IMG/VR virus record: IMGVR_UViG_3300040959_000743
Span: 1-26,741 of that record
Direction: 5' to 3' (one strand)
From: a virus
DNA: 26,741 bases
The notes under the pieces were generated by a model, which searched no databases, was not told where the DNA came from, and worked only from the letters and a program-made list of their open reading frames with translations. A program made the translations under genes and the position numbers. Below are positions 4,707 through 25,312 of the stretch, in pieces. Each line of letters starts with the position of its first letter. The stretch's first letter is position 1.

Positions 4707-5444
4707 ATGGCACAAAACATATCAGATACCAATAGCTTTACTACCAACTATGAGGTAGGGGTTCCACACCAGACTGACGTTGCAAATATTGTGCAGGCTT
4801 TTACAGAGTACCATTATGGAGCAGATTATGATGGAACTGGATCTCCAGCGGGTATGGAAGGGCACCTAAGCGGCCTTGCTTCGGATCTTACTACTCATGG
4901 TACGTCTCCCACAGGAGTTCATGGAGTTGGTGCAGGTAGTGTTGTAGGAACAACGTCTACACAAACATTGACAAACAAAACCCTGTCTTCTCCCACAATT
5001 ACTGGCACAGCAACGGTTACTGGAGATTTTAATGTCACGGGCACTTTTAATGTAACAGAAAGTATTAATGTCACAGGAGACTTTGATGTTCAATCAGTCA
5101 GGGAATCACTATCTTCAGAACTATTATCTGCTGGAACCTTAACAATTGATTACTCAACAGGAACTAATGTAACTCTTTCTTCTCCATCATCTAACTTTAC
5201 CGTTGATTTGACAAACACTCCTACAGACAATGACAAAGTTATTAATGTGACTGTAATAACTACACAAGGAAGCACCGCATACATTCCATCAGCATTTGAG
5301 ATTGATGGGTCGGCACAAACAATCAGATGGGTTGCAGGCATCACCCCTACACCAACAGCTAATAAAATTGATATTTTTAGCTTTACTCTTATCCGTCAGT
5401 CAAGCTCCTGGACAGTCTTGGCCCAAGCCTCCTTGAACTTTTAG
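4707..5444 (+). CDS. tail fibre protein, 245 aa
   Basis: The protein begins MAQNISDTNSFTTNYEVGVPHQTDVANIVQAF and contains HGVGAGSVVGTTSTQTLTNKTLSSPTIT, a motif repeated across phage fibre proteins, then short strands TVTGDFNVTGTFNVTESINVTGDF (shaft-like repeats). The C-terminal part is beta-rich and ends IDIFSFTLIRQSSSWTVLAQASLNF, another common fibre-tip pattern. Translation starts with GGAG a few bases upstream, in a very short leader. The stop codon overlaps the AGGA ribosome binding site of the next gene. It is a virion structural protein with high confidence, although the receptor is unknown. Confidence 0.82.
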   Translation: MAQNISDTNSFTTNYEVGVPHQTDVANIVQAFTEYHYGADYDGTGSPAGMEGHLSGLASDLTTHGTSPTGVHGVGAGSVVGTTSTQTLTNKTLSSPTITGTATVTGDFNVTGTFNVTESINVTGDFDVQSVRESLSSELLSAGTLTIDYSTGTNVTLSSPSSNFTVDLTNTPTDNDKVINVTVITTQGSTAYIPSAFEIDGSAQTIRWVAGITPTPTANKIDIFSFTLIRQSSSWTVLAQASLNF

Positions 5445-5452
5445 GATATAAC

Positions 5453-6346: not shown

Positions 6347-6891
6347 CAAGCTTCGTAGCAAAAGATGATAATGGTGTCGCCACCGCAGACTTTGAGTGTT
6401 TTCCAGTAGAGCTAGGCGACAGTTGGATATTTACTCACAAATTTAAAAGCGGTGACCGTTATTCCTTCTTTATTTCTATGTATCATAATCAAGATTTTCC
6501 TGCAGGGACAGTAATTTCTTCTCCGTATATGTATCATAAGTATCCAGACGTATACTCCGTATATTCCCGTCCTAATGAAGATGGAATATATTATGGTGAG
6601 AGGGCTAGTATCAATCCAATACATCGTGGTAAAAAGTGGTGGACATGGTATGGATATATGACAAGAGTTATTATGTGGGGAACATTTGGTATTCATGTAG
6701 ATGTTACCCCCGACAGAAATACTAAAATGGAATCTTTTTATCAAAAAGCTACAAAGGGTATTGGTCAAGAATTAAAAACAAAAAATAATGGCAGAATGGA
6801 TTATCCAGATGAGGAGATGCCTAGAGATCCAGCATTTCCTTATTCATGGCAAAATAACAGAATTTCTAAAAGGATAAAAAATGAGAACTAA
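6343..6891 (+). CDS. unknown 182-aa protein between Hint-like gene and oxygenase run
   Basis: I do not recognise this protein. It is soluble, rich in Tyr, Trp and His, with MYHNQDFPAGTVISSPYMYHKYPDVYSVYSRP in the middle and HRGKKWWTWYGYMTRVIMWGTFG after it. The C-terminal 50 residues are basic and look disordered (KTKNNGRMDYPDEEMPRDPAF). The ATG overlaps the stop of the Hint-like gene (ATGA), and the 3' end overlaps the next start by 11 bases, so it is co-translated with both. The order suggests it works with either the Hint-like protein or the oxygenases. No catalytic motif is evident. Confidence 0.65.
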   Translation: MTSFVAKDDNGVATADFECFPVELGDSWIFTHKFKSGDRYSFFISMYHNQDFPAGTVISSPYMYHKYPDVYSVYSRPNEDGIYYGERASINPIHRGKKWWTWYGYMTRVIMWGTFGIHVDVTPDRNTKMESFYQKATKGIGQELKTKNNGRMDYPDEEMPRDPAFPYSWQNNRISKRIKNEN

Positions 6892-7489: not shown

Positions 7490-7510
7490 TTTCCTTTGAT
7501 TGGAGCATTA

Positions 7511-8200
7511 GTGGAAAAAATAACACAAGGTCCATGGTACGAGATTCAGGAGCAGACATGGACGGAATCTAAAGAAGTAGCAGATGGAATATGGGTATAT
7601 AAAAACGTTGTAAGTAACGGAAATGAAATAGTAGAAAAGATTTCAAAAATTTTAGATAGGTCATGGAACCCATCACTAAGTTGGATGCCAGCATATGTGG
7701 GATATCAGGAGCTTATGCCTGAATACAGAGATTGCCATGACTTTAAATATAAGCCTGGTCAATTACCAGAAAATATTCCAGGTGTTCAGACAATAAACCA
7801 AATATATTCAGAACTACACTATAGACAGTTGCAGCCTGTAAAAGACTATGCCAAACATTACAACATCGGGGAGCTTAGATATTGGGAGGCAATGAATCTT
7901 GTTAAGTACGGCCCTGGAGAGCACTTTGAATATCATCACGACCATGGATATTCATATAACTGCACAGTATCTCTTGTTCTTTATTTAAATGATAATTATG
8001 AAGGCGGAGAAATATCTTTTAGACTACAAAACCTACAGGTAAAGCCAGAAGCGGGGGATCTATTTGTTTTCCCATCAAACTTTATGTATCCTCATAGAGC
8101 TATGCCAGTAATTAGTGGAACTAAATATTCACTAGTAACAATGCTTGATTATTCAGACAAGTTCCATAGCCCAGAGTTTTATCAGGAAACAGGGTCATGA
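7511..8200 (+). CDS. 2OG-Fe(II) dioxygenase, prolyl-hydroxylase-like (1st of four)
   Basis: The 229-residue protein has the double-stranded beta-helix signature of 2-oxoglutarate/Fe(II) dioxygenases. The iron ligands are HHD (His142, Asp144) and distal His195, with Lys205 as the 2-oxoglutarate-binding residue ten positions on. The strand LVLYLNDNYEGGEISF and the loop GDLFVFPSNFMYPH are typical of the P4H-type subgroup. Such enzymes hydroxylate a C-H bond, often in Pro or Lys of proteins, using O2 and 2-oxoglutarate; the substrate here is unknown. An in-frame TTG at 7496 exists, but GGAG lies 5 bases before the GTG at 7511, so that start is preferred. The stop overlaps the next ATG. Confidence 0.88.
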   Translation: MEKITQGPWYEIQEQTWTESKEVADGIWVYKNVVSNGNEIVEKISKILDRSWNPSLSWMPAYVGYQELMPEYRDCHDFKYKPGQLPENIPGVQTINQIYSELHYRQLQPVKDYAKHYNIGELRYWEAMNLVKYGPGEHFEYHHDHGYSYNCTVSLVLYLNDNYEGGEISFRLQNLQVKPEAGDLFVFPSNFMYPHRAMPVISGTKYSLVTMLDYSDKFHSPEFYQETGS

Positions 8201-8892
8201 GATCAATACATGTTCATAAAGAAATAGATAAATCTGCCAATATAGAACAGCTACAAGTAAAAAGATTATGGATGGATGAAACGCCAAACAAACATGCATA
8301 TCAATGTATGCCCCTATCCCTGGCAAACTCATTGGGATGGGGAATATCTTTTCCAGAGGACATATCCTTTATTTGGAACGGAATTTGTGATACAACCGCA
8401 GATCACGTTAAGGTAATAAGCGGAAATAAGTATTGTTTTACATCTAGAGGCAATGCTACTATAAGCTTTAATACATATCTTACTGTTGTAACAGAAGAAA
8501 GTGTTACTACTTTAGTAATGCCCGTTCCAAATGAATTTAATGAAAATGCTCAATGCTTTACTAACCTAATAAGTACCTCATTTTTTAAGTCATCTATTCC
8601 TATCGCATGGAGGATAACAAAGCCCAATGTAGAAATAATAATACCAGCAGGTACGCCTGTTGCCACCATTGTTCCAATATCATTAGGTGCTCTGCAAGAG
8701 TTTGAGGTAAAAATACAAAATAAGCCTTATCCAATTAATAAAGAGCAAGTTAAGGAAGACTTTGAATTTTATAAAAAAGTTAGCAAACTAGGAAAATTTA
8801 CAAACCTTTATAGAAAAGCAGAGAATAGTAGAGGGGAGTCTGTGGGAAGTCATGAATCAAGAACAATCAAGCTTACAACAAAAAGTGAATGA
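8197..8892 (+). CDS. DUF6065-like jelly-roll protein
   Basis: The 231-residue protein contains KRLWMDETPNKHAYQCMPLSLANSLGWGISFPEDISFIWNG, which matches the DUF6065 pattern (hAyrCLPL-iAN-GW), followed by TRGNATISF-like strands and a PAGTPVATIVPISL end. The family has no assigned function that I know; it occurs in phages and bacteria near oxygenases. The ATG overlaps the previous stop (ATGA). The C-terminal 40 residues are basic and are overlapped by the next gene in another frame. It seems to be part of the same modification unit. Confidence 0.6.
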   Translation: MRSIHVHKEIDKSANIEQLQVKRLWMDETPNKHAYQCMPLSLANSLGWGISFPEDISFIWNGICDTTADHVKVISGNKYCFTSRGNATISFNTYLTVVTEESVTTLVMPVPNEFNENAQCFTNLISTSFFKSSIPIAWRITKPNVEIIIPAGTPVATIVPISLGALQEFEVKIQNKPYPINKEQVKEDFEFYKKVSKLGKFTNLYRKAENSRGESVGSHESRTIKLTTKSE

Positions 8893-9619
8893 TAAAAGCA
8901 TAATCTTTACATCTAATAGGCATCATCTAACAGAAAATCATCCGTCATGTCCAGTTTCTTCCGTAAAAACGATTCCTAAGTGGTATAAAGATGCAGACAT
9001 ATATGCGATTGATCCACAAACAAATAAGCCATATATTAATCCACAAGATGGTGGGAAAATACCTACATGGAAGTCGTGTCCTGCATTGTTAGATGTTATG
9101 TCTTCAGGCTACGTTTTAAGAACGCCTTGTGACATAGAATTTTATTACGACAATAATAGGATTAGAGCCAAAGTTTTAGATAAACAAAACAAAGACTTTA
9201 TTGATGAAAGATCTCCAATGCCCCAGTTTGTAACCCCCATGGGGTACGATGACAACCATTTTGCTTGGTGGATGAATTGGGCAGTAACTGTACCAGAAGG
9301 ATATAGCGTTTTGTACACACACCCTATGAACAGGTTTGACCTTCCATTTATTTCTACAAGTGGTGTTGTTGACAATGACAATGTATTTGGTGGTGGAACC
9401 ATGCCGTTCTTTCTATTTAAAGGATGGACTGGAGTTTTGCCTGCTGGAACACCGTATTCTCAGCTTTTTCCATTCAAAAGAGAAAACTGGTCATCAGACA
9501 TAAAAATAGAAAACCCAGAAAGAATGTACAAAAAAAATATGATTAGCACCCTTAGATTTAGAATAAAAAATGGTGGGGTGTATAAGAATAAAATTTGGAA
9601 GAGAAGATCTTACAAATAA
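8852..9619 (+). CDS. phage jelly-roll protein of the family seen beside 2OG oxygenases
   Basis: The 255-residue protein contains VKTIPKWYKDADIY, TWKSCPALLDVMSSGYVLRTPCDIEFYY, then WWMNWAVTVPEGYSVLYTHPMNRFDLPF, SGVVDNDN and PAGTPYSQLFPFKRENW. I recognise this pattern from cyanophage and other environmental phage genomes, where it is unnamed. Its C-terminal GTP-x-x-Q-x-x-P-F region resembles the end of the DUF6065-like neighbour, suggesting they are distant relatives. It starts with a 41-base overlap inside the upstream gene; GGGAAG precedes the ATG by 3-8 bases. The overlap keeps expression coupled. Function unknown. Confidence 0.65.
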   Translation: MNQEQSSLQQKVNDKSIIFTSNRHHLTENHPSCPVSSVKTIPKWYKDADIYAIDPQTNKPYINPQDGGKIPTWKSCPALLDVMSSGYVLRTPCDIEFYYDNNRIRAKVLDKQNKDFIDERSPMPQFVTPMGYDDNHFAWWMNWAVTVPEGYSVLYTHPMNRFDLPFISTSGVVDNDNVFGGGTMPFFLFKGWTGVLPAGTPYSQLFPFKRENWSSDIKIENPERMYKKNMISTLRFRIKNGGVYKNKIWKRRSYK

Positions 9620-9621
9620 GG

Positions 9622-9627
9622 TACAAT
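9622..9627 (+). promoter_or_regulatory. -10 promoter element (TACAAT), leaderless placement
   Basis: TACAAT ends exactly 6 bases before the ATG at 9634, the same spacing as at 3700. No ribosome binding site fits in the gap, so a leaderless transcript is likely. No -35 is visible. Confidence 0.5.
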
Positions 9628-9633
9628 TTTGTC

Positions 9634-10296
9634 ATGATTACCAATCCTCAAAATTTACAAAAACCAGTATCTATAACACCCTCTGGATATTTTGGTATGG
9701 ACGCAAGTAATATTGTTGAGCTAGAAAACTTTATGACAGAAAAAGAATTAGATACATTATCAAACTTTGCCAAAAACCTCACAACCTGGGATCAAACAGA
9801 GACACACTATGATGAGGACGGCGTTGTAATATATGAGTCAGAATATTGGAAAGACAGGGTTGCTACTTTTGAAACTTTAAGATCTGTAAATCCACAAATA
9901 CCCCTCATGATTACAAAAATGATGGATAGATTAAAAGTTCCAGTTGAAAAACATTTCAATGTAAAAATACAAGCAACAGGGCCAACGATAGTTAAATGGA
10001 TGCCAGGTCAATATCAACATCCACACGCAGACAAAGAATTGCATGAAGGAGAAAATGCGGGTAAACCAAACGATTTTCCATATTATGATTTAGCCAGCCT
10101 GTTTTATTTAAATGATGACTATGAGGGTGGAGAGCTTTATTTTCCTAAACAAGGTATTCAATTTAAGCCAAAGCGTGGTGCTGCTTATTTCTTCCCTGGA
10201 GATATGAATTATATACATGGAGTTACAGAAATAAAGAGTGGAGTTAGATTTACCTGTCCGTTTTTTTGGACAATAAAGGAGCTTGGAGATGCATAG
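9634..10296 (+). CDS. 2OG-Fe(II) dioxygenase (2nd of four)
   Basis: This 220-residue dioxygenase has HAD (His131, Asp133), distal His195 and Arg205, with the strand LFYLNDDYEGGELYF before the second half of the barrel. An upstream in-frame ATG (9595) lies inside the previous gene; the 9634 start is chosen because TACAAT sits 6 bases upstream and the earlier codons do not resemble the family. The first 30 residues (SITPSGYFGMDASNIVELENF) form the usual N-terminal strand. The reaction is predicted as hydroxylation; the substrate is unknown. Its stop overlaps the next gene by 8 bases. Confidence 0.88.
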   Translation: MITNPQNLQKPVSITPSGYFGMDASNIVELENFMTEKELDTLSNFAKNLTTWDQTETHYDEDGVVIYESEYWKDRVATFETLRSVNPQIPLMITKMMDRLKVPVEKHFNVKIQATGPTIVKWMPGQYQHPHADKELHEGENAGKPNDFPYYDLASLFYLNDDYEGGELYFPKQGIQFKPKRGAAYFFPGDMNYIHGVTEIKSGVRFTCPFFWTIKELGDA

Positions 10297-11020
10297 ATAT
10301 ACAAAAGACATTATCACATATGATAACTTTATCTCCAAGAGAGAGTGTGATTCTGTCATAAAGTTTCTAGAGAATCAAGCGGAATCCGAAAAGATGGAGT
10401 GGATGCCAATATCTTTTTATGAATCATACTCTTCTTCTTTGCCAAAAGAGGACAAGGAGCTAGAAAAATTTGATTTGCCTTCTAATTATTTTGAAATTTT
10501 AGAAGACAAAATGAAAAAAACTGTTGCAGAGGTACATGATCTAGAAGTAGAAACCATATTTAAAATAGGATTTCATACACAAAAATGGGAGCCTGGAGCA
10601 TACGCCAGACCACACTCAGACAATACTGATGAGAACGGTAAGTTCGGTGCTTTTGAAAGAAGTAGGTATGCATCATTTTTATATTTAAATGATGACTTTG
10701 ATGGTGGCGTTTTAAGATTTGTAAAGCAAAATATAGAAATGCCCCCTAAAACTGGACTACTTGCTTCATTTTCTGGAAGCTTTGAAAATATGCATGAAGT
10801 AACATTACTAAAGTCTGGCGTAAGATATACAATCGGATCTTTTTGGGATGATAGAGATGAATCAGCGTATCCAGAAGAATTAAAAGAGAGTTGGAAAGAG
10901 GAAATGGAAAAGACCAGAGAGCAGCAAAGGGTAGAAAAAGAAGAGTGGCAGAGTCTTTTGAAAAAAGGATATAAAATAGATCAGCAAGGTAGAAAATATA
11001 AGATAGGTGAAGTATCGTAA
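10289..11020 (+). CDS. 2OG-Fe(II) dioxygenase with coiled-coil tail (3rd of four)
   Basis: The 243-residue protein has HSD (His109, Asp111), distal His169 and Arg179, with FLYLNDDFDGGVLRF as the core strand. After the catalytic fold there is a charged helical tail of about 55 residues (LKESWKEEMEKTREQQRVEKEEWQ read in part), absent from the other three; it may mediate assembly. An alternative in-frame TTG at 10283 is too close to AAGGAG (10276-10280), while the ATG at 10289 has a normal spacing. The stop overlaps the next ATG by one base (TAATG). Confidence 0.86.
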   Translation: MHRYTKDIITYDNFISKRECDSVIKFLENQAESEKMEWMPISFYESYSSSLPKEDKELEKFDLPSNYFEILEDKMKKTVAEVHDLEVETIFKIGFHTQKWEPGAYARPHSDNTDENGKFGAFERSRYASFLYLNDDFDGGVLRFVKQNIEMPPKTGLLASFSGSFENMHEVTLLKSGVRYTIGSFWDDRDESAYPEELKESWKEEMEKTREQQRVEKEEWQSLLKKGYKIDQQGRKYKIGEVS

Positions 11021-11703
11021 TGGAACTAACAAGGCTTCATGAAAATGTTTATTATTATACAAATGTATTTGAAAACCCTCAATGGATAATAGATTCCTTA
11101 AACTCACTAGATGGTGATGAGCAAACATACTCAGCGATAACAAAGTGGTACCCATGGCTTGCCAGCAACAATAATGAAGACTGCTTTGGTGAAAAGAAAG
11201 ATCTCTACTATCATAATAAGGAGTATGTAGACAATCGGCTAGTTTCTGAAGTAATAGAAACAATGAAGCAAGGCGTAGAAAGAATATGCTATTCTTTTGT
11301 AAAGGATAGAGAACTAGACATTAAGCCGAACATATCCCCGTTTCTTGACATGTGCAAGTACACAAAGGGTGGAAATCTTGGACCACATTATGATGGTTTA
11401 GATGGAGATAGAAGCCTGATGTATTCTATCGTAATGTATTTCAATGATGATTATAGGGGTGGGCAAATATCTTTCTCAATTAATGAAGATGATATAAGGC
11501 CCACAACAAACATACAAGACCCTGCTATAGATTTTTGGGTAAAGCCAGATCCAGGTTCAGCAATCATATTCCCATCAACATATCCATACTTTCACCAATC
11601 ACACCCAATAATTTCTGGTGAAAAGTACATGTCAACCTCTTTTATATTTGTTGACGGTTATGATCCATATAATCCAGATCACGTTAAAGAATATCGTAGC
11701 TAA
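11020..11703 (+). CDS. 2OG-Fe(II) dioxygenase (4th of four)
   Basis: The 227-residue protein has HYD (His123, Asp125), distal His192 and Lys202, with IVMYFNDDYRGGQISF as the core strand and IIFPSTYPYFHQSHPIISGEKY around the distal ligand. Like the first copy it uses Lys rather than Arg to bind 2-oxoglutarate. The loop between the core strand and distal His is longer (about 40 residues, with DDIRPTTNIQD), so its substrate pocket probably differs. It is coupled by TAATG overlaps on both sides. Four intact paralogues in a row suggest distinct substrates. Confidence 0.87.
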   Translation: MELTRLHENVYYYTNVFENPQWIIDSLNSLDGDEQTYSAITKWYPWLASNNNEDCFGEKKDLYYHNKEYVDNRLVSEVIETMKQGVERICYSFVKDRELDIKPNISPFLDMCKYTKGGNLGPHYDGLDGDRSLMYSIVMYFNDDYRGGQISFSINEDDIRPTTNIQDPAIDFWVKPDPGSAIIFPSTYPYFHQSHPIISGEKYMSTSFIFVDGYDPYNPDHVKEYRS

Positions 11704-15280: not shown

Positions 15281-16036
15281 ATGGCGACATTAATTCAAGT
15301 TAGAAGAGGAACTGCGTCTGAATGGTCTTCTGCCAACCCAACTCTCTCTTCTGGTGAAATTGGACTAGCTACAGATTTAGGACAAATTAAAATAGGTGAT
15401 GGTTCTACTGCCTGGAGTTCTTTGTCATATATTTCTGCTAGCGATACTGATGATTTAACAGAAGGATCTACAAACCTTTATTTTACAAATCAGCGTGCTT
15501 TAGATGCAACACAGGCCACCATCGCTTCTGCTTCTGCTGCTGCCGTAGCACATGCTGATGCGCTAGATACTGACGACGTAGCAGAAGGTTCCACCAACCT
15601 CTACTTCACCAACCAACGTGCACTTGACGCTACAACTGCAACCATTGCTTCTGCATCAGCCGCCGCAGTAACCAGCGCAAACGGGTACACAGATACATCA
15701 ATTGCCAATCTAGTGGACACTGCACCATCAACTCTTGATACCCTCAATGAGCTTGCTGCTGCTCTTGGTGATGACCCTAGCTTTGCAACAACTGTTACCA
15801 ATAGCATTGCCACTAAACTTTCTATTGCTGATGCCTCTGCTACCTATCTTACACAAGTTGATGCAACATCAACCTACGCTCCACTTTCTTCCCCCGCACT
15901 TACTGGAACACCTACTGCTCCAACAGCAAGTGCAGGAACAAATTCTACACAAATTGCAACAACAGCATATGTAGATACTGCAACAGCGACGGTACAACCA
16001 ACAATTCATCCAATGTTTATTATAGGTGGGGTATAA
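15281..16036 (+). CDS. tail fibre with Mtd-like N-terminal domain, 251 aa
   Basis: Residues 1-53 (ATLIQVRRGTASEWSSANP, then SGEIGLATDLGQIKIGDGSTAWSSL) match the N-terminal domain of major tropism determinant-type proteins, a virion attachment module. Two near-identical shaft repeats containing EGSTNLYFTNQRALDAT follow (from residues 61 and 102), then LDTLNELAAALGDDPSFATTV and a SPALTGTPTAP..STQIATTAYVD segment, both classic phage fibre sequences. AGGAG lies 6 bases upstream. The second shaft repeat and the following 150 bases use C-rich codons unlike the first. The role is adsorption or connection of the tip proteins encoded next. Confidence 0.85.
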   Translation: MATLIQVRRGTASEWSSANPTLSSGEIGLATDLGQIKIGDGSTAWSSLSYISASDTDDLTEGSTNLYFTNQRALDATQATIASASAAAVAHADALDTDDVAEGSTNLYFTNQRALDATTATIASASAAAVTSANGYTDTSIANLVDTAPSTLDTLNELAAALGDDPSFATTVTNSIATKLSIADASATYLTQVDATSTYAPLSSPALTGTPTAPTASAGTNSTQIATTAYVDTATATVQPTIHPMFIIGGV

Positions 16037-16037
16037 A

Positions 16038-16379
16038 ATGACTGAAGTATATAAAAGATTAGGTGCTATTGCTCCTGCTGACGATAGTGAAACCCTTCTT
16101 TATACCGCCCCTTCTGGCACACAATCTTTAATCTCAAATATCACGGTAACTAACAGATCGTCTTCATCTGCATCATTTGATATAAATATTCATGAAACAG
16201 GGTCTGCTCCATTTACTTCTACTAACACTAATGCATTATACAAATCTTCCCTCATTTCAGCAAATGAAACACAAATTCTTGAACCTGGAATTGCTCTTTC
16301 TGCATCTGCCTCTATTGTGGCAAAGGATAATAGCGGGGGTAATCTAACATTTTCTACCTATGGAGTTGAACTATCATGA
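16038..16379 (+). CDS. small tail protein, 113 aa
   Basis: The protein reads MTEVYKRLGAIAPADDSETLLYTAPSG, then SNITVTNRSSSSASFDINIH, ILEPGIALSASASIVAKDNSGGNLTFSTYGVELS. This is the pattern of a small beta-sandwich protein found after fibre genes in many phages (GAxxPAxxTxTxLYTxPxGT). An in-frame GTG at 16026 lies upstream, but AGGTGGGG covers it and is 6 bases before the ATG at 16038. The stop overlaps the next ATG. The next gene has the same domain split by a repeat array. Confidence 0.72.
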   Translation: MTEVYKRLGAIAPADDSETLLYTAPSGTQSLISNITVTNRSSSSASFDINIHETGSAPFTSTNTNALYKSSLISANETQILEPGIALSASASIVAKDNSGGNLTFSTYGVELS

Positions 16380-17566
16380 CAGAATATAAGGTATTAGGAC
16401 AGAGTGCTCCAAGTGCTAATACAGAGACTGATCTTTATACTACCCCCTCGGGTTCTGCCACGGTAGTTAGAGCAATAAATGTAACAAATACAGCATCAGC
16501 TGCTGATACATTTGATATTTCTATCAATGATAGTGCAATTCCTCCTGCGCCTGATGGTCCCTTTGCTGCGGTGGCGACCAGCTCAGATGCCGCCGCCACC
16601 TCCACTGACGGCATCACATGGACCGCTAGGACAATGCCCTCAAGTCAGACTTGGATATCCGTCACCTCTGGCAACGGCACGTTTGCTGCGGTGGCATACG
16701 GCTCAGCCGCCACCGCCTACTCCACTGACGGCATCACATGGACCGCTAGGACAATGCCCTCAGAGCAGGGTTGGTTTTCCGTCGCCTATGGAAACGGCAC
16801 CTTTGCTGCCACGTCGAACGGTGCCGCCGCCGCCACCTCCACTGACGGCATCACATGGACCGCACGCACACTGCCCTCAAGTCAGACTTGGAGAGCCGTC
16901 GCCTTTGGCAACGGCACGTTTGCTGCGGTGGCGAGCAATACCGCCGCCGCCGCCACCTCCACTGACGGCATCACATGGACCGCACGCACACTGCCCTCAA
17001 GTCCGAATTGGTATCGCGTCACCTTTGGCAACGGCACGTTTGTTGCGGTGGCATACAGCTCAACCGCCGTTACCGTCTCCACTGACGGCATCACATGGAC
17101 GGCAGGCACACTGCCCTCATTTCAGCAATGGGTATCCCTTACCTATGGCAACGGCACGTTTGCTACGGTGTCATACTTCAACGCCGCCGCCGCCACCTCC
17201 ACTGACGGCATCACATGGACCGCTAGGACAATGCCCTCAAATACGAGGTGGAGAGCCGTCGGCTATGGAAACGGCACCTTTGCTGCGGTGTCATACGCAG
17301 GTGCCGCCGCCGCCTACTCCACTGACGGCATCACATGGACCGCTACGTCAATGCCCTCAAATAAGTATTGGGGGGCCGTCACCTATGCAGAACCCAGCCC
17401 TGTTTCACTCATTCCATCAGAAGACTATCTCTTCAATTCCCATGAAATTCTTGGTAATGAAACAATTACCATAAAGGGCGGGTATACAATGGAAGAAGAT
17501 AACACTATTCGTATTAAATCAACTAATGGAACATCTACATTCCATGCCTTTGGAGGAGAAATTTAA
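16376..17566 (+). CDS. tail protein with inserted seven-repeat Asp-box propeller
   Basis: Residues 1-55 (MTEYKVLGQSAPSANTETDLYT...TFDISIN) and the last 50 (PSEDYLFNSHEILGNETITI ... STFHAFGGEI) together match the 113-aa product encoded just upstream. Between them are seven 40-residue repeats, each with STDGITWTA (an Asp box, S-x-D-G-x-T-W), PS-xxx-W and GNGTF, at residues 76, 116, 155, 195, 235, 275 and 315. Seven such repeats predict a seven-bladed beta-propeller, commonly a glycan-binding or enzymatic fold. No catalytic residues of a sialidase are evident. Repeats are GC-rich against AT-rich flanks. Coupled through ATGA upstream and TAATG downstream. Confidence 0.82.
   Translation: MTEYKVLGQSAPSANTETDLYTTPSGSATVVRAINVTNTASAADTFDISINDSAIPPAPDGPFAAVATSSDAAATSTDGITWTARTMPSSQTWISVTSGNGTFAAVAYGSAATAYSTDGITWTARTMPSEQGWFSVAYGNGTFAATSNGAAAATSTDGITWTARTLPSSQTWRAVAFGNGTFAAVASNTAAAATSTDGITWTARTLPSSPNWYRVTFGNGTFVAVAYSSTAVTVSTDGITWTAGTLPSFQQWVSLTYGNGTFATVSYFNAAAATSTDGITWTARTMPSNTRWRAVGYGNGTFAAVSYAGAAAAYSTDGITWTATSMPSNKYWGAVTYAEPSPVSLIPSEDYLFNSHEILGNETITIKGGYTMEEDNTIRIKSTNGTSTFHAFGGEI
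16559..17390 (+). repeat. seven-copy 120-bp coding repeat array (first array)
   Basis: The core TCCACTGACGGCATCACATG recurs at 16601, 16721, 16838, 16958, 17078, 17198 and 17318 (period 120, once 117). The DNA is nearly identical at conserved codons and divergent in two windows, around the middle Trp and the GNGTF-to-Asp-box loop. The array is distinctly richer in C and G than the surrounding genes. Confidence 0.93.
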
Positions 17567-17700
17567 TGGGTATTGAGAGAACAAAGTTAACTCTTGAAAC
17601 ATTAGATGACGATGTTTCTGCTGTTCCAACATTTACATCGTCTACTGCTGAACCATCAGGCGGTAATAATGGAGATATCTGGCTTACCTACACCCCATAG
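17566..17700 (+). CDS. 44-aa tail-associated protein
   Basis: A short frame starts at an ATG sharing one base with the previous stop (TAATG) and encodes MGIERTKLTLETLDDDVSAV, ending SGGNNGDIWLTYTP. GGAGGAG lies 8 bases upstream. The ending P-S-G-G-x-x-G-D-I-W-L-T-Y-T-P is a motif I associate with small proteins in phage tip gene groups. It sits between two propeller-bearing genes and is part of the same coupled unit. Role unknown, presumably structural. Confidence 0.7.
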   Translation: MGIERTKLTLETLDDDVSAVPTFTSSTAEPSGGNNGDIWLTYTP

Positions 17701-17709
17701 GGATATATT

Positions 17710-18693
17710 ATGACTGCATATACAAAAGTTGGCGGGGAGTGGAAAGAATTTGATCCTAATGTAAAAGTAGGAGGCTCTTGGTACCCCGTCGATAATGGCT
17801 ATGTAAAAGTAGGTGGAGTGTGGAAAGAGTTTTATGCTTTAAGTGAACCCGTTATTGAAACTTTTGTTACCCTTGGAGTTAATACAACAGTTTCAGCCGC
17901 CTCCACCGATGGCACCACTTGGACGCAAGGGACATTGCCCGTGACTGCTAGTTGGAGAGAAGTGGCTCACGGCAATGGCACCTTTGTTACTTTGGGATAT
18001 GGTTCCACAATATCAGCCACCTCCACCGATGGCATCACATGGACGCAGGGGTCGCTGCCTGTGAGTTCTAGCTGGAGAAGTATAACCCACGGCAATGGCA
18101 CCTTTGTTGCTGTGACATATGGTTCCACAATATCAGCCACCTCCACCGACGCTATAACATGGACGCAAGGTTCATTGCCCGTGCAGGCTAATTGGAAAAA
18201 TTCAGCCTTCGGAAGTGGCACCTTTGTTGTTGTGGGAGGAAGCGGCGCAATAGCCCTCGCCTCCACCGATGCTATAACATGGACGCAGGGGACACTGCCT
18301 ACGAGTGATGATTGGCCCTGGGTCACCCACGGCAATGGCACCTTTGTTGCTGTGGCATCGTCCAGCCAAACAGCCGCTACCTCCACCGATGGCATTACTT
18401 GGACGCAGGGGACATTGCCTGTGTCTTCTGATTGGTACTCTGTTACCCACGGCGATGGAACCTTTGTTGCTGTGGCAATAAGTAGCACCATCGCTGCTAC
18501 CTCCACCAATGGCATCACTTGGACGCAGCAGACATTGCCTTACGGCAGTTGGCGGCAAATCACCCACGGCAATGGCATTTTTGTTACTGTGGCAGGCAAC
18601 ACCACAACAGCCCTCGTCTCTACCGATGGCATCACATGGACACAGCAAGTATTGCCTACGAGTGTTAACTGGATTCCTGTAGGATCTGGATAA
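17710..18693 (+). CDS. tail protein with seven-repeat Asp-box propeller
   Basis: The 327-residue protein starts with three short KVGGxW repeats (YTKVGGEWKEF, VKVGGSWYPV, VKVGGVWKEF; residues 4-44), a motif often at the anchor end of phage tip proteins. It then has seven 40-residue repeats with ASTDGxTWTQGTLP, a middle Trp and HGNGTFVAV, the Asp boxes beginning at residues 65, 105, 145, 185, 225, 265 and 304. It should form a seven-bladed propeller closely related to the one in the gene 144 bases upstream, but with a different anchor. AGGGAT is 6 bases before the ATG. Likely receptor-binding; ligand unknown. Confidence 0.82.
   Translation: MTAYTKVGGEWKEFDPNVKVGGSWYPVDNGYVKVGGVWKEFYALSEPVIETFVTLGVNTTVSAASTDGTTWTQGTLPVTASWREVAHGNGTFVTLGYGSTISATSTDGITWTQGSLPVSSSWRSITHGNGTFVAVTYGSTISATSTDAITWTQGSLPVQANWKNSAFGSGTFVVVGGSGAIALASTDAITWTQGTLPTSDDWPWVTHGNGTFVAVASSSQTAATSTDGITWTQGTLPVSSDWYSVTHGDGTFVAVAISSTIAATSTNGITWTQQTLPYGSWRQITHGNGIFVTVAGNTTTALVSTDGITWTQQVLPTSVNWIPVGSG
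17860..18690 (+). repeat. seven-copy 120-bp coding repeat array (second array)
   Basis: Core CTCCACCGATGGC-type boxes begin at 17902, 18022, 18142, 18262, 18382, 18502 and 18619 (period 120, the last 117). Consensus differs from the first array (TQGTLPV against TARTMPS), so the arrays amplified separately. Two boxes read GACGCT or GATGCT in place of GATGGC (Asp-Ala for Asp-Gly). Confidence 0.93.
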
Positions 18694-18712
18694 CAAAATA
18701 GCAAACGTATTA

Positions 18713-18718
18713 TATAAT
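18713..18718 (+). promoter_or_regulatory. -10 promoter element (TATAAT)
   Basis: TATAAT 24 bases before the ATG at 18742, with TAGGAAAA as ribosome binding site between them. It has no TG extension and no clear -35. Confidence 0.45.
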
Positions 18719-18741
18719 ATCCACAACAGATAGGAAAAATA

Positions 18742-19401
18742 ATGAAGCACTATGATGTTCTCATAGCAACTCCTGGGGCTATGATGGAGGCACAATATGT
18801 AAAAAGTCTTGTCAATACCCTCGCAGAATGTGATAAAAGAGGATTGACATATAAATTTCTCAATGCATATGGATCTTTAGTTCACCATGCCCGTGAATTA
18901 ACCTGCTCAGGTGGGGAGGGTATGGAATTAAATCCAGACCACAAAGGTCCAATGGGAGATTCTGTAACATATAACAAAATCTTTTGGATTGATTCTGATA
19001 TTGCTTGGGAACCATGGCAATTCTTTAAGATCTATGACTCAGAATATGATGTAACAACAGGGGCATACTTATTGGCAGATGGAGTCACCACTTCCGTCCA
19101 TGCATGGGGAACTTCTGGGGGTATTCCTAAGCATGATATTCTACAAATGTCTGAGATTACCAAGGTACAAAGCATTGGATTTGGTTTTGTAGCAATGAAG
19201 TCAGGGGTATTTGAAAGATTGGAACGCCCTTGGTTTAAGCATTATCTCCAAGGTATTCAAAGAAGCGACGGTACAACAATAGAAGATTCACTAGGAGAAG
19301 ATATTTCTTGGTGTATCAATGCATACAAGGCGGGTATAGATATTATGTTTGACCCTACCGTCCTTGTTAAGCATATGAAGAAAGTACCTGTTTTATGGTA
19401 A
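18742..19401 (+). CDS. GT-A-fold glycosyltransferase
   Basis: The 219-residue protein has a Rossmann-like start (HYDVLIATPGAMMEAQYVKSL), a metal/sugar-nucleotide DxD motif in IFWIDSDIAW (Asp84-Ser-Asp86), and a GEDISWC acidic motif (185-191) followed by a conserved late His (VLVKHMK, His211), all in the order seen in GT2-like enzymes. It would transfer a sugar from a nucleotide donor. Acceptor unknown: a virion protein or the host cell surface. The gene has its own promoter and ends in the next one. No membrane segment. Confidence 0.78.
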   Translation: MKHYDVLIATPGAMMEAQYVKSLVNTLAECDKRGLTYKFLNAYGSLVHHARELTCSGGEGMELNPDHKGPMGDSVTYNKIFWIDSDIAWEPWQFFKIYDSEYDVTTGAYLLADGVTTSVHAWGTSGGIPKHDILQMSEITKVQSIGFGFVAMKSGVFERLERPWFKHYLQGIQRSDGTTIEDSLGEDISWCINAYKAGIDIMFDPTVLVKHMKKVPVLW

Positions 19402-19404
19402 AAT
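19396..19404 (+). promoter_or_regulatory. extended -10 promoter (TGGTAAAAT)
   Basis: The element overlaps the last codon and stop of the glycosyltransferase gene. It precedes a near-perfect ribosome binding site (AAGGAGGTGA, 19413-19422) for the ATG at 19429. Confidence 0.5.
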
Positions 19405-19428
19405 ATAAGTTCAAGGAGGTGAAGTGAT

Positions 19429-19725
19429 ATGGCAAACAGGTATGAGGTTGCAGGACCAGAAGAGGGTTTTGCAGTAAGAGTATTTTATAATGGCGCAGAT
19501 GTTGCTGGACTATTCCAGCCCTACTACCCCAACGGTACCCCTTGGGATTCCGCTGAAGAGGCTGCTGAGTGGGCAGAGATGTTCATTGAGTCCATTGAGG
19601 TAGAGGACGCTCCATTTGCTCCAGGGGGCCGTGGTGAGCCACGCTCCCCAAAGCCAACCCCAGAAGAGATTGAGGCTATGGAGGCTGAGATGGAAGCACG
19701 CAGAAATGGTGAAATTCCACAGTAA
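19429..19725 (+). CDS. 98-aa acidic hypothetical protein
   Basis: The protein starts MANRYEVAGPEEGFAVRVFYNGADV, has SAEEAAEWAEMFIESIEVEDAPF, and ends in an acidic, proline- and glutamate-rich helix (PTPEEIEAMEAEMEARRNGE). Its coding sequence is richer in G and C than the flanking genes. It has the strongest ribosome binding site in the window, so it is likely made in large amounts. It lies between a glycosyltransferase and a sulfotransferase, and its own promoter and terminator make it a single-gene unit. Similar short proteins with EAAEWAE motifs occur in environmental phages; function unknown. Confidence 0.65.
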   Translation: MANRYEVAGPEEGFAVRVFYNGADVAGLFQPYYPNGTPWDSAEEAAEWAEMFIESIEVEDAPFAPGGRGEPRSPKPTPEEIEAMEAEMEARRNGEIPQ

Positions 19726-19746
19726 TATTTTATATAAAATCATATT

Positions 19747-19773
19747 AGCTAGGGTTTATTTATCCTAGCTTTT
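19747..19773 (+). terminator. hairpin terminator with short T run
   Basis: AGCTAGG (19747-19753) pairs with CCTAGCT (19764-19770) around a 10-base loop, followed by TTT. It lies 21 bases after the 98-aa gene. Confidence 0.65.
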
Positions 19774-19774
19774 A

Positions 19775-19783
19775 TGATATTAT
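19775..19783 (+). promoter_or_regulatory. extended -10 promoter (TGATATTAT)
   Basis: One mismatch from the recurrent TGATATAAT, directly after the hairpin. It precedes TAGGAAAA and the ATG at 19807. Confidence 0.5.
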
Positions 19784-19806
19784 GAGGTCAAATAGATAGG
19801 AAAATA

Positions 19807-20619
19807 ATGGATAAGAAATTCTTTTTTATGGCGGGTTTGCCACGTTCGGGTGGCACAATGTTGTCGTCCATTCTCAATCAAAACCCTGATATTTATGTAT
19901 CTCCACAGTCTGTGCTTCCTAATACCTTGGGATCAACATATAATCAATATTCAAGCAGGGAAAACAAAGACTCTGACCAATGGGACAACATCTATCGTGT
20001 TATGGAAATGATTATTCCCACTTTTTATGGCGGGTATAAAGAGAAGTATATTATAGACAAGAGCTTCTCATGGCTAGAACCACACCCCTATGTCATTCTT
20101 GAACATCATCTTAAGAATCCAATCAGGGTAATTTGTCCAGTTCGTAATGTCGTGGATATTCTTGCATCGTGGAATAGACTATGTGAAAACGATCCTAATA
20201 ATAAATTCGATCCCGCCATCTTGCAAAAAGATAAGACAAAGAGGTCCATGGCTGATAAGCGTGCAGATTACTTTATGTCCATTGGTGATGCAGAAAACGA
20301 TATTCGTAAGGGTATTGAGAATATGAAAAGAATTTTGCATTCACAGCTCAAAAATAACATTATGCTAGTAGACTATGATGATCTGATCCTTGATACAGAA
20401 AATACTGTTAATAAGGTGTATGACTTTTTGGGTATTGAGCATTATGATGCTAACCTTGATAATCTTTCTACCCCCCACACATACACAGATCATTGGGGTG
20501 TAAAGAATCATCACAAGGTAAAGAAAACGGTACAAAGAGAGAACTACGTTCTAGAAGACATATTCTCTCCATCTATTATTAAGAAGTATTCAGGACTAGA
20601 ATTTTGGAAAGATATGTAA
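19807..20619 (+). CDS. PAPS-dependent sulfotransferase
   Basis: The 270-residue protein begins with the 5'-phosphosulfate-binding loop GLPRSGGTMLSSIL (residues 10-23) and has the 3'-phosphate-binding motif PVRNVVDILASW (111-122, Arg113 and Ser121), the two signatures of the sulfotransferase superfamily. It would move a sulfate from PAPS to a hydroxyl, typically on a sugar or small molecule. Length is normal. The ribosome binding site is TAGGAAAA. It overlaps the next gene (TAATG), a GT4-type enzyme, so a sulfated glycan is the simplest product. PAPS would come from the host. Confidence 0.86.
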   Translation: MDKKFFFMAGLPRSGGTMLSSILNQNPDIYVSPQSVLPNTLGSTYNQYSSRENKDSDQWDNIYRVMEMIIPTFYGGYKEKYIIDKSFSWLEPHPYVILEHHLKNPIRVICPVRNVVDILASWNRLCENDPNNKFDPAILQKDKTKRSMADKRADYFMSIGDAENDIRKGIENMKRILHSQLKNNIMLVDYDDLILDTENTVNKVYDFLGIEHYDANLDNLSTPHTYTDHWGVKNHHKVKKTVQRENYVLEDIFSPSIIKKYSGLEFWKDM

Positions 20620-21554
20620 TGGAAAACGTATTCCCATGGGACAATAATAATTTAGGTGGTACAGAAGTAGCAGTACGATGGTTTCATAAGAACGTATTGC
20701 CAGAAATGAAGAATATAAGAGACTATCGCTGTATTTCTGTTCCTGGAGCACCACAGAAACTAGAAGAACTTTTCGATGGTCAGAGAAACATCCTGTGGCT
20801 TCATTTGACACCAGATCAGATTGATGACAATGGCATGAATGTATTGAAGCGTCAAGACTTTCTTGACACAGTTGATCATTTTATTGTCTTGTCTCAATTT
20901 CACAAAAGGCAAACTGTGTTGCAACTAGGTATTAATCCAGATATAGTTCATGTTATTGAATACCCTCTTTACAATATTGAATATAATAGTTATAAGTTTG
21001 ATAATGTTGATAAGGTAAGAATTATTCACGCTTCTCAGGCGGTACGAGGCCTAGAAGTTCTTCTACAATCTACACTTCAAATTGATGAAGATTTTCAACT
21101 AGATATTTATAATGATTTCTATCCTGAACAATATCTAGACAATGAGGCAATAGAGAAGTTGTTAGATGACGAAAGAATTACCTTCTATGGTAAGACACCT
21201 CATAAGACTGTCATGAAGAAGTTTGCAGACTCTCATATTCATGCTTATCCTTCAATTTTTGAGGAAACAAGTTGTCTTGTTCAGGCAGAAGCGTTGGCAT
21301 CTGGAAATCTTTGTGTCTATAGCAACATCGGGGTTCTTCCTGAGACTTCTCGCGGGTATGGAATGATGGTAGATTTCATTTCTAAGCAATCTATGGAAGA
21401 AGCAGTAAAAGACTACGCAGATAATCTAAGAAACGCTATAAACATGGTAAAGAATAAGGAATTCGATCCATCAGAGCAGATTGAAGATATTACAGCCTAC
21501 AGAAGCAAGGAAAGAATCAGCCAGCAATGGCTTAATTTCGATAAAATGCTATAA
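20619..21554 (+). CDS. GT4-type glycosyltransferase
   Basis: The 311-residue protein has GT-B features: NNNLGGTEVAV near the N-terminus (residues 9-19), a central HASQAVRGLEVLLQ linker, and the C-terminal EETSCLVQAEALASG with an E-x7-E pair (Glu216, Glu224) that binds the donor sugar nucleotide. An in-frame TTG at 20604 is possible, but the ATG at 20619 overlaps the sulfotransferase stop (TAATG) and is preferred. Predicted cytoplasmic. It is co-expressed with the sulfotransferase. Confidence 0.82.
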   Translation: MENVFPWDNNNLGGTEVAVRWFHKNVLPEMKNIRDYRCISVPGAPQKLEELFDGQRNILWLHLTPDQIDDNGMNVLKRQDFLDTVDHFIVLSQFHKRQTVLQLGINPDIVHVIEYPLYNIEYNSYKFDNVDKVRIIHASQAVRGLEVLLQSTLQIDEDFQLDIYNDFYPEQYLDNEAIEKLLDDERITFYGKTPHKTVMKKFADSHIHAYPSIFEETSCLVQAEALASGNLCVYSNIGVLPETSRGYGMMVDFISKQSMEEAVKDYADNLRNAINMVKNKEFDPSEQIEDITAYRSKERISQQWLNFDKML

Positions 21555-21586: not shown

Positions 21587-24500
21587 ATGATTACTAATTC
21601 TAATCTGTATGCTGAAAGAGTTTTTAGTGAGCACCCACTAGCTTTGTGGCCTTTAGATGAAAAAATATCATTTCTTCAACTACTTTCCGATGCTCAACAA
21701 AATTTATCAGACGGATTATATTGGTCACTATCAAACCTGTCTAGCATATCAACTGTGGACTATGCCGATACGCCAATCAAAACTAGCACGTCTTCACGAT
21801 TTCAATTAAGCTCTTCATCATCTTATGTTGCGGAAATTTCTAGCACATTTACTTTAAATAGCACTAGCGACTTTGATACAACAAAAGGCACTGCTTGTTT
21901 TTCTGCACATGTTTACCAGGGTTCGATTTTTATTGACTCGTTTGAAATCGGTGTTTCTTATGGGTCCACAGAAGATACGAAAAAATACGCTTTTGCTACG
22001 AACCTGGGCTGGCATAATATTTCTCATACCTTTGATTTGCCTGAAAATGAAGAACTAACTTTTTTTATTAGAATTACATTTTCTAATTTAGGATATGTTT
22101 CAGATTTTGTTACACAAATAAATGGAATATCGTTAGGGCAATGGTCTGAGCAATACATTGCAGATTCAATAGGATTTAATGATTTTGATTTACCGTCAAA
22201 CCTTGAACACCTTTTGGTTTCTGGATCTGGATACAGTTCTGTAACTGCGGATTCTTATGGACTTGATACAGAATTAAACGGCTACTATTTAATAAAAGAC
22301 AAAAAAATATTTGCACAAAATTCTGGCATTCCCCTTGTTTATGGATCTAATCATACTACTAAAATTTTTGAAGCCCCAAATGGAAATCCTTCTTTGATAT
22401 TTCCTGGAAATGGCTTTCTTAATGATTCTGGGAAATATAACAACTACACGTTAGAAGCGTGGGTAAGGATGGAAAATGTTTGTGCAGACCCAATTAAAAT
22501 TATTGGATCGGCGGCCTCTAACGATGGTATATATGTAGAAGAAGGTTTTATTACATTAAGAATTGGTCCATACCAAAAGTCTTATTATGTTGGAAAATGG
22601 TATAGGCCAATGCTCTTGCATTTTAGGTACACCTCAACAGAAGCTTCTCTTTTTATTAACGGAGAACAAACAATATCTCTTCCAATTGACATAAAAAACG
22701 TTGTGTTTGCTCAAAAAACAAACTTAAATGGAGATGATCTAGATTGGATAGCCGTATACGGTAGTGATTTTATTAACCCGTTTGAAATTGACTGCCTTTC
22801 AATTTTTCCATACATAATTCCTTTAGAAATGGCTAAAAAAAGGTTTGTGTTTGGTCAAGGTGTTAAAAATACCGATCTGTCAAGTGACACATACTCTGCA
22901 AACTCGTACCTTATTGATTATCCATTTGCAAACTACGCAGCAAACTCTATATACCCAGATATAAGTTCTTGGAGGTCTGGTTTTACAAATAATCTTAGGA
23001 CAACATCTACACACCTAATTAGTCCAGAATATAAACTTCCAGATTTTCAATTAAAAAGAAATTCAAGATTTCTTAATGCTTTTGATTGGTATAGTGAAAA
23101 TAAAAGGGCAAACGATATAGATACAGATCAATTTACATATTTAACAATGAGGCCGCTTTATGAATATGAAATATTTCTAAATTGGAATCAAGTATACAAT
23201 AGCGGAATAAATACCTGGGGAAGCCTATCCTCCGATACTTGGTATAACGAAACGCACGAAATATTTCTTAATGAAAATATTTTATATTCAGACGTTAGCA
23301 TTTATTATGACAACATAGACATACTTGATGAAAGATTAGAATCTGTTTCTGGTGTTTTTAAATCTCCAAATTCTGCAATTCTTGATCAGCCAATTTTTCA
23401 TTTTAGAAACAAGTCTACTGGAGAAAGAATAGGGGTAACCTTAAAACTAAATTGGCTTACCTATAGCTTTTATTCTTCTTCTGGTGTAGAAACTGTTTTG
23501 TACAATGAAAAAATTGATGATGCAGAATACTTTGTTGCTGGACTCAATATCAAGGATATTCAATCTTCAAAATATTCTATAATAGGAAGCTTTTTCTCAT
23601 CACTAGACAATATATCGTTAAACATCGGTGGATACGAAGATGCAGCGTTTGGTGGAAGAATATATGCTGTACATTTTAACAACGCATTCTTTTATCAAAA
23701 AGATTTGTCAACATATTTTGAAAATTCCTTTATAAAACAAATATCTGGCACATCTAACGTTGCTGGAGACTTAATAGAATACATAGCTAACTATTCTCTT
23801 CTTCCATCAGAAAAAGACTATATCGTAGATTTTGATATCGGAGTTACTGGATATTGGGAAGATTATCAGCCCCTTTCATTTTTTGGAAAATATGTTACTA
23901 ACGAATATGGAGAAGAAAACTATGATTTAGATATGCTTCAACTTAATATAGATATCCCCAAGAAATCTATTCTTGATGAAACATTAAATGAAATCTTAAC
24001 ATATGGTGCTTTAAAATTATCGTATGGAACCTACACAAATCTGTCAGATATTTTGTTGACTGGATATGCAAATTATCTAGAACTAAAGAACGATCGAGCA
24101 GCAGATGTACCAAATACTAGATTTGATTCAAACGTCAATGCTTTTGTTTCTTTCCAAACAAGTGACGAGGTTGGTAAGAAGTCTTATTCAAGTTTTGTAA
24201 ACATAAATGATATATCGTACAACAATGTTGTAGAATTTGATAGTTCTAATTATAAAAATACTAAATACGAAGTTGACGACAATACAATAATCTTTCCACC
24301 AAAAACACCAGACTTTAAAGACTATTACATAGGCTTGCATCTAGAAGTTAAAATTCGTGGCATTTTATACAAAAACTTGCAACTAAAAAGACTAGAACTT
24401 GCTTCATTAGCCTTTGATAAAACAACGGGATACCCAATTGGTACAAAGTATGCAAACGACATGTATCCATTTGCAAGAACAAATTATTTGTTTAATTATA

Positions 24501-25312
24501 AAAATAAAAATCCTTTTACTATATTTAAAGAAACAGCACCATACCTTTATCTTACAGAATATTCTGGAGTTTATGTAAATCCGTATGATTCACAACATGA
24601 AAGAGGAGTCCTTCTTCCTATCAATAAAAACAAGGAAGCCGACTATCAAACTGGTGGGATGCAATTTTGGGGAAGGTATCCTCTCGCAACGTTTCCAGAA
24701 ACTCCTTTTAAAGTTGCAAAAATAAAAAGCGATACAGTAGACATTGACTTTTACTTGCAACCAGAATCTAATAAAACTAGAGCAAAACTTGTGGCATATG
24801 ACTACAGAACTGGAAAAGAATACAAAAACTTAATATTTTATCAAGATTCTCATAAAGTAGAAAATCCGATATTTTACCCAAGGCAGTGGACTGGAATAAA
24901 TATATCCTTGCTTGATCCAATAGAGTTTGACAACGTAACTGGAAGAATAGAGTTGTATTCTGGAATGGTATTTAACAACATTGGAGAGTATAAGTACACA
25001 CAGTCAGTAAATGATATTTCTAAACAATTGTTTAAAAAATGGTGGCAGGTTTCTTATGATACAGAAACTAGCGTAAGTAATTCTTGGCAAGATATAGAAA
25101 GTCCTGGAGGCACTGGAACTGAAACTTGGGCCGATGCTGCAACCATCCTAGTTCCAAATGAATACACAATTGATGGAGACGTGGAATATAAAAATCAAGT
25201 CGGTCTTTCAGTTTCAGTAACTGAAGATATTTCTACCATGTCTTTGTATTCAAATGGTGCAGATGTATTTACAAATGTTCAATGGGAAGTTTTTGAAGGA
25301 TCTCCTGTCTAG
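21587..25312 (+). CDS. large virion protein with LamG-like domain, 1241 aa
   Basis: The N-terminus has YAERVFSEHPLALWPLDEK, a motif that opens large tail-associated proteins in several environmental phages. Residues about 255-375 look like a LamG/concanavalin-type lectin domain (NYTLEAWVRMEN ... VEEGFITLRIGPY ... YVGKWYRPMLLHFRY ... ASLFINGEQT). A second similar region is at about 575-715 (ESVSGVFKSPNS ... IGVTLKLNWLTYSF ... FGGRIYAVHFNNAFF). The rest is beta-rich with many Asn, Tyr and Ser. No membrane segment or catalytic motif is seen. It is the largest gene here, probably leaderless, and placed between two glycosyltransferase genes. Likely a minor tail or appendage protein that binds carbohydrate. 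Confidence 0.75.
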   Translation: MITNSNLYAERVFSEHPLALWPLDEKISFLQLLSDAQQNLSDGLYWSLSNLSSISTVDYADTPIKTSTSSRFQLSSSSSYVAEISSTFTLNSTSDFDTTKGTACFSAHVYQGSIFIDSFEIGVSYGSTEDTKKYAFATNLGWHNISHTFDLPENEELTFFIRITFSNLGYVSDFVTQINGISLGQWSEQYIADSIGFNDFDLPSNLEHLLVSGSGYSSVTADSYGLDTELNGYYLIKDKKIFAQNSGIPLVYGSNHTTKIFEAPNGNPSLIFPGNGFLNDSGKYNNYTLEAWVRMENVCADPIKIIGSAASNDGIYVEEGFITLRIGPYQKSYYVGKWYRPMLLHFRYTSTEASLFINGEQTISLPIDIKNVVFAQKTNLNGDDLDWIAVYGSDFINPFEIDCLSIFPYIIPLEMAKKRFVFGQGVKNTDLSSDTYSANSYLIDYPFANYAANSIYPDISSWRSGFTNNLRTTSTHLISPEYKLPDFQLKRNSRFLNAFDWYSENKRANDIDTDQFTYLTMRPLYEYEIFLNWNQVYNSGINTWGSLSSDTWYNETHEIFLNENILYSDVSIYYDNIDILDERLESVSGVFKSPNSAILDQPIFHFRNKSTGERIGVTLKLNWLTYSFYSSSGVETVLYNEKIDDAEYFVAGLNIKDIQSSKYSIIGSFFSSLDNISLNIGGYEDAAFGGRIYAVHFNNAFFYQKDLSTYFENSFIKQISGTSNVAGDLIEYIANYSLLPSEKDYIVDFDIGVTGYWEDYQPLSFFGKYVTNEYGEENYDLDMLQLNIDIPKKSILDETLNEILTYGALKLSYGTYTNLSDILLTGYANYLELKNDRAADVPNTRFDSNVNAFVSFQTSDEVGKKSYSSFVNINDISYNNVVEFDSSNYKNTKYEVDDNTIIFPPKTPDFKDYYIGLHLEVKIRGILYKNLQLKRLELASLAFDKTTGYPIGTKYANDMYPFARTNYLFNYKNKNPFTIFKETAPYLYLTEYSGVYVNPYDSQHERGVLLPINKNKEADYQTGGMQFWGRYPLATFPETPFKVAKIKSDTVDIDFYLQPESNKTRAKLVAYDYRTGKEYKNLIFYQDSHKVENPIFYPRQWTGINISLLDPIEFDNVTGRIELYSGMVFNNIGEYKYTQSVNDISKQLFKKWWQVSYDTETSVSNSWQDIESPGGTGTETWADAATILVPNEYTIDGDVEYKNQVGLSVSVTEDISTMSLYSNGADVFTNVQWEVFEGSPV

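Follow-up and report, generated by a model that had tools for sequence, protein, structure and literature searches.

The window analysed here, a viral record of 26,741 bases from IMG/VR, contains two neighbouring genes, P2 and P3, that each code for seven Asp-box repeats (Table 1). The main finding is a plug-in, exchangeable propeller rather than the twin arrays to which a preliminary description had drawn attention. We consider it likely that the propellers serve as exchangeable receptor-binding heads and that the carrier which holds them is tail-fibre-associated, within a host-recognition island of cyanomyovirus type. The anatomy and the turnover are read from sequence and models, and we infer the location in the virion and the binding of a receptor. 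The kind is already known, that of phage beta-propeller adhesins, and the variant is new; searches of the open-licence literature gave no previous report of propellers being inserted or exchanged in phage tail carriers.

Table 1. Features of the propeller region; positions are those of the window.
Feature	Position	Strand	Length	Description
Mtd_N-type tail fibre protein	15281-16036	+	251 aa	Pfam Mtd_N, E 8.5e-15; PHROG tail fibre families
Slot A, empty carrier P1	16038-16379	+	113 aa	small beta domain without propeller
P2 gene (slot B)	16376-17566	+	396 aa	
Slot B carrier, N-terminal half	16376-16558	+		strands 1-4, at residues 5-51 in the model
Slot B propeller	16559-17395	+		seven Asp-box blades, 39-40 residues
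Slot B carrier, C-terminal half	17396-17566	+		strands 5-8, at residues 351-395 in the model
Slot C, open reading frame	17566-17700	+	44 codons	both ends match L025:4585 (MGIERT...GGNxGDIWLxY)
P3 gene (slot D)	17710-18693	+	327 aa	
Slot D anchor	17710-17859	+		N-terminal KVGG-W repeats; phrog_25859, E 2e-7
Slot D propeller	17860-18693	+		seven Asp-box blades, C-terminal
Downstream neighbour, conserved	18742-19401	+		phrog_1574

Asp boxes (motif S[TS][DN].[ITA]TWT) start at 16601, 16721, 16838, 16958, 17078, 17198 and 17318 in P2, and at 17902, 18022, 18142, 18262, 18382, 18502 and 18619 in P3, with spacings of 40, 39, 40, 40, 40 and 40 residues and of 40, 40, 40, 40, 40 and 39 residues, respectively. 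A six-frame scan of the window gives 14 matches to the motif, all within the two genes (7 + 7). Because 100 base-shuffled versions of the window contain no match and the codon-shuffled P2 and P3 reading frames (1000 each) at most one, the arrays are not due to chance, and the repeats reported in the preliminary description are real. Tandem Repeats Finder scores the period-120 arrays at 895 and 396. The units had been described as 40 residues long, which applies to nearly all of them, with one 39-residue unit in each gene; the two arrays do lie in adjacent genes, the gap being 143 bases instead of the 144 given earlier, and a small open frame (slot C) lies inside it. The consensus blades differ between the genes, as had been described, but with agreement at 27 of 40 positions they belong to one family.

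Structures of P2 and P3 were predicted with AlphaFold2 from alignments of 19 and 16 relatives, respectively. The P2 model has a pLDDT of 92.0 and a pTM of 0.74, and the P3 model, in which the first ~45 residues are unreliable, has values of 89.9 and 0.82. The best structural partner of both is 1l0q, a YVTN surface-layer propeller (chains re-aligned by VIA-align 2; Z 29.0, rmsd 2.5 and 273 aligned for P2; Z 28.7, rmsd 2.4 and 270 aligned for P3), with virginiamycin B lyases and designed WRAP propellers of seven blades next in rank; we take 1l0q and the lyases to be seven-bladed as well. The PDB Foldseek list also includes Kelch propellers and designs that are presumably six-bladed, as their name says, and the count of seven thus rests on the repeats and the model. 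Both predicted structures are closed and seven-bladed, so that structure prediction, the check proposed in the preliminary description, supports its expectation that P2 and P3 are closed seven-bladed Asp-box beta-propellers. The Asp box is predicted to fall in the turn that joins strand 3 to strand 4; the P2 blade at 195, for example, has a strand at 191-195, the box at 195-202 and a strand at 202-205. Both rings start at strand 2 of a blade and end at strand 1, which brings the two termini together on a single blade, and a ring closed in this way, as in P2, can be accommodated in a loop. Scores against DUF6242 (PF19755), 15.3 and 15.2 bits, miss the Pfam gathering score of 29.

Blade number among relatives was followed in 122 dereplicated blade reading frames taken from the window and from two locus scans of uncultured viral contigs; the scans used similarity to window proteins, so the sample is biased. 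They returned 56 and 78 distinct propeller loci. Among 126 arrays of at least four units that are uncut by a contig end, 78 have exactly seven profile matches, 16 have six, 11 have eight and the rest four to five or 9-18, and eight matches can mean seven blades plus a split half blade, as in P2. Repeat number is therefore not freely variable, seven being far the commonest; free variation had been named in the preliminary description as an outcome that would speak against it. When a unit is counted only if it shows an Asp box, 64 of the 126 arrays have six units and 33 have seven, which we take to mean that one blade per ring is often without the motif. The conserved downstream neighbour served as a propeller-blind anchor, for which 80 of the 199 loci found were examined. 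Thirty loci have an anchor identity of 65% or more and 1 kb of upstream sequence (two further loci of this identity, with short upstream sequence, were left out), and in 28 of them an array of at least four blades lies upstream of the anchor; these arrays have mostly 7 or 14-16 blades. One item scored as empty in this survey, in L265, is a carrier truncated where the contig stops. Just upstream of distant relatives of the anchor there are also single proteins of ~30 blades, of 1736 aa at 3919 in L311-L317 (not L314) and of 2058 aa at 3771 in L328, which are perhaps four rings in a row. Among cultured phages, each propeller protein matched one of 50,697 records (E 1e-5). A 323-residue open frame with Asp-box repeats is present on the plus strand of Synechococcus phage B23 (MN695335.1; L221, 5809-6777), where the annotation places two hypothetical proteins (gp328 and gp329) on the opposite strand; the B23 propeller gene seems to be misannotated.

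The relationship of the propellers to their carriers was followed by comparison of the window with the syntenic contig 3300022200_000033 (L005), to which it is 83% identical in nucleotide sequence over 18711-21541 and 80% over 15882-16195. P1, which matches phrog_1276 (the carrier family, of no known function; E 8.2e-8), has a 429-aa orthologue there, L005:4715. The two ends of this protein share 78% and 84% identity with P1, and a seven-blade propeller is inserted between P1 residues 55 and 58. With a dN of 0.13 and a dS of 0.39 between P1 and the L005 flanks, the empty P1 is conserved under purifying selection. The N-terminal half of P2 is 47% identical to P1 over the first 58 residues, its C-terminal half is 90% identical to that of slot B in L005 over 51 residues, and when its two flanks are joined they can be aligned to P1 across 121 columns (E 9e-13). 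The P2 model places four strands before the propeller and four after it, and P2 is thus predicted to be a small beta-sandwich carrier with a propeller inserted in one loop. L025:4585 has a seven-blade propeller between the ends that match the slot C frame, which is probably the empty form of a second carrier type, although it is short and a weaker case than slot A. The anchor of slot D is 70% identical to that of L025:5818 over 44 residues and is of low confidence in the P3 model. The preliminary description had assigned the two propellers different anchors; they do differ, and the account is completed by the first anchor being a carrier split around its propeller. The carrier has no PDB sequence match below E 0.3 and no Pfam match was found; structure searches were dominated by the signal of the propeller.

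Among close relatives the sets of propeller genes vary, and a given slot can contain another propeller or be empty; there are three such genes in L005 and five in L025, and in L148 six carriers in a row are filled, filled, filled, empty, filled and empty. Given these other propeller sets and the apparent emptiness of two window slots, there is no support for the earlier suggestion that the pair forms a dedicated device with twin tips or dual specificity. Half-profiles run on 220 sequences (the window and fetched loci, with three window-derived loci dropped) identified 136 carrier reading frames, of which 44 have at least three blades in the loop, one has a divergent insert and 91 are labelled empty, a class that includes two L096 rows that are loop-I filled; many of the 136 are repeats from a single contig. 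A tree was built from 101 carriers and 109 columns, with 71 distinct empty carriers and one filled L096 carrier entered twice. Eleven of the 12 rows in its slot A clade (support 98/100) are filled, and the empty P1 of the window is nested inside this clade (99/87 and 100/98), so that by parsimony the empty slot A would be a secondary loss of the propeller. Two sequence patterns used for further slot A and slot C orthologues returned just L005-type contigs and two chance matches. The full carrier profile has inserts at two loops, near columns 55-60 (the window type) and columns 12-19 (L010, L021 and L096). Two circular permutations occur among 75 single uncut arrays: in 32 of them the array ends after strand 1, and in the other 43 it ends after strand 3. 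The pattern of empty and filled carriers, the two insertion loops and the two permutations together argue for repeated independent propeller insertion. At 4998-6407 and 6341-7813 in L147 the same carriers have longer inserts (349 and 368 residues) of divergent, poorly recognised Asp-box units, and the loop therefore accepts more than one type of propeller.

The window propellers have a foreign codon composition. GC3 is 0.67 in the slot B propeller and 0.51 in that of slot D, as against 0.19-0.37 in 24 other window genes, and the slot B carrier halves have 0.18 (N) and 0.25 (C). Across 137 arrays GC content tracks that of the locus (r 0.86), and among 125 arrays P2 is the most deviant in composition (z 3.59) and P3 the sixth (z 2.25). 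No donor of the high-GC arrays was found, 37 bacterial loci matching at just 23-46% identity and no viral match being close.

In the carrier tree the slot B carriers of the window and L005 are close kin. A sister relationship of their propellers is rejected (p-AU 0.0098), and their blades have no positional correspondence (identity 0.527 on the diagonal and 0.515 off it, p 0.26); in a control lineage with 8-13% divergence outside the array the values are 0.78-0.94 and 0.35-0.37 (p 0.0014, the minimum for 720 permutations). Joint descent of the slot B propeller and its carrier is thereby rejected for this pair. Four moderately diverged fibre pairs at other loci behave differently from one another, one keeping blade correspondence (p 0.007) and three giving no clear result (p 0.057 to 0.29), so ring replacement is not universal. 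Few forks of the propeller tree are supported, and its shape is star-like. In near-identical contigs most arrays show at least the conservation of the sequence around them, and because overall they differ no more than this sequence does, continuous hypermutation is rejected for such contigs and diversification is not continuous. Conservation at short distance together with lost blade correspondence suggests that rings are stable for a while and are then replaced or rebuilt. The array of L073 has no difference from that of L062 in 771 positions, with 8% difference outside, and relative to L063 it differs by 2.3% in the backbone and by 22% inside the array; this points to array exchange, but the L073 contig is 5 kb long with the array at its edge, and may be a chimeric assembly.

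Blade correspondence could also have been lost by re-amplification or gene conversion within resident arrays, with no import of whole rings, an alternative that we find possible though doubtful. Continuous amplification from single blades is documented in PMC9218822; the P2 blades are alike, with a median identity of 0.675 (67.5%) that is above the 60% level given there for recently amplified propellers, and eight consecutive Asp-box codons are identical across all seven, while the P3 median of 0.55 is below that level. It is harder to reconcile resident arrays with the GC3 values and the deviant composition of P2 described above, or with whole rings that are missing from orthologous slots.

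Across 328 blades of exactly 40 residues, mean entropy is 2.51 bits in the top-face loops 4-1 and 2-3 (columns 12-16 and 33-36) and 1.23 bits in loops 3-4 and 1-2 (p 0.005). The Asp box of such propellers is described as lying on a conserved bottom face, with functional sites on a variable top face (PMC2716378), so the variation sits where a ligand would bind, and we infer ligand binding by the top-face loops. Non-synonymous to synonymous counts for the top-loop columns are 40:3 versus 21:11 in P2 and 52:9 versus 31:23 in P3, and in P3 mean dS exceeds mean dN; positive selection is not claimed, as blades share ancestry and the columns were picked after the alignment had been seen, and the counts are read as variability. 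Phages carry glycosidase-type tailspikes, and the propellers might accordingly be enzymes, sialidase-like or of another glycosidase type, whose heads cleave sugars of the host or of a capsule. We regard this as improbable: Asp-box propellers are common in glycosidases, as described in PMC2716378, but here none of the enzyme families in Pfam or NCBIfam scores above its cut-off, and the near-repeat blades of P2 and P3 are without a long unique loop for a catalytic site.

In their genomic setting these genes have the Mtd_N tail fibre gene upstream and the phrog_1574 gene, a sulfotransferase and glycosyltransferases downstream. By the phrog_1574 gene, the nearest cultured relatives are for the most part phages of Synechococcus and Prochlorococcus, and none of the 101 records reaches 60% identity. 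Slightly less probable again than an enzymatic role is that the genes are lysogeny or host-takeover factors located here by chance, as the downstream glycosyltransferases and sulfotransferase might suggest, since the Mtd_N tail fibre gene lies directly upstream of the carriers, P-SSM2 has an empty carrier homologue directly 3' of a tail fibre gene, and in pelagimyophages and cyanomyophages a single host recognition cluster contains both tail fibres and glycosyltransferases, as described in PMC7029224.

Among the other features of the window, a tandem family at 7496-11703 consists of four diverged paralogues (at 7496, 9595, 10283 and 11020) that are 24-32% identical where aligned, and the three that were scanned match 2OG-Fe(II) oxygenase-type PHROGs. 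The 297-aa protein at 5453-6346 has FFPP repeats (period 12/21/45 bases) and no PHROG match; we take the stretch after the repeats to resemble a Hint (hedgehog/intein) domain. The largest window gene, a 1241-aa reading frame at 21587-25312, has no Pfam, PHROG or NCBIfam match. DGR-diversified receptor-binding proteins have a reverse transcriptase and a template repeat nearby; among the 20 window proteins scanned with PHROGs, no reverse transcriptase was listed.

With the Asp-box beta-propellers of Quistgaard and Thirup (2009; PMC2716378), as described there, the window propellers share an SxDxGxTW-type motif between strands 3 and 4, a conserved bottom face and a variable top face; they differ in their regular, near-repeat 40-residue blades and in being inserted in a phage carrier domain. 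Propeller domains in phage adhesion or baseplate proteins include phi11 Gp45, with five blades, and PRD1 P2 and PhiKZ gp131C (4GBF), with seven (PMC4901313). By the description in that account these are single domains of one protein, whereas here rings come and go in several slots. The WD40 recognition genes hnwd of Podospora share high blade similarity, blade turnover and variable top-face residues (PMC2873952), but those, as described, are fungal genes with freely variable repeat number, whereas here it is mostly seven and the case for positive selection goes no further than a simple N:S contrast. The host recognition cluster of PMC7029224 is likewise a variable island with tail fibres and glycosyltransferases; its main text is without the word 'propeller', and the window island carries propellers.

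The reading that we favour is that each gene encodes a closed seven-bladed Asp-box propeller held by a small tail-fibre-associated protein, and that in P2 the propeller interrupts a single loop of a carrier domain with eight strands. The carrier would keep its place on the virion, and the variable top-face loops would probably bind a host surface glycan or protein. Whole rings would be gained, lost and replaced at fixed sites, presumably by homologous recombination between arrays, such that the binding surface would change and the carrier would be undisturbed.

We give even weight to the truth and the failure of a broader proposal, a slot system in cyanomyovirus-like phages. A row of small tail-associated carriers would have one receptive loop each, and complete seven-blade rings from a shared pool would be inserted, removed and passed between phages that differ in base composition. 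If true, this would give each phage a combinatorial set of receptor-binding heads in which the ring stays closed at seven blades. The plug-in propeller of the window, for its part, gives a clean natural example of one domain, for binding, that comes and goes as a whole within another, and its filled and empty orthologues can be compared. It also gives a testable account of how aquatic phages may change host recognition, the ring being swapped while the carrier and the rest of the tail are kept.
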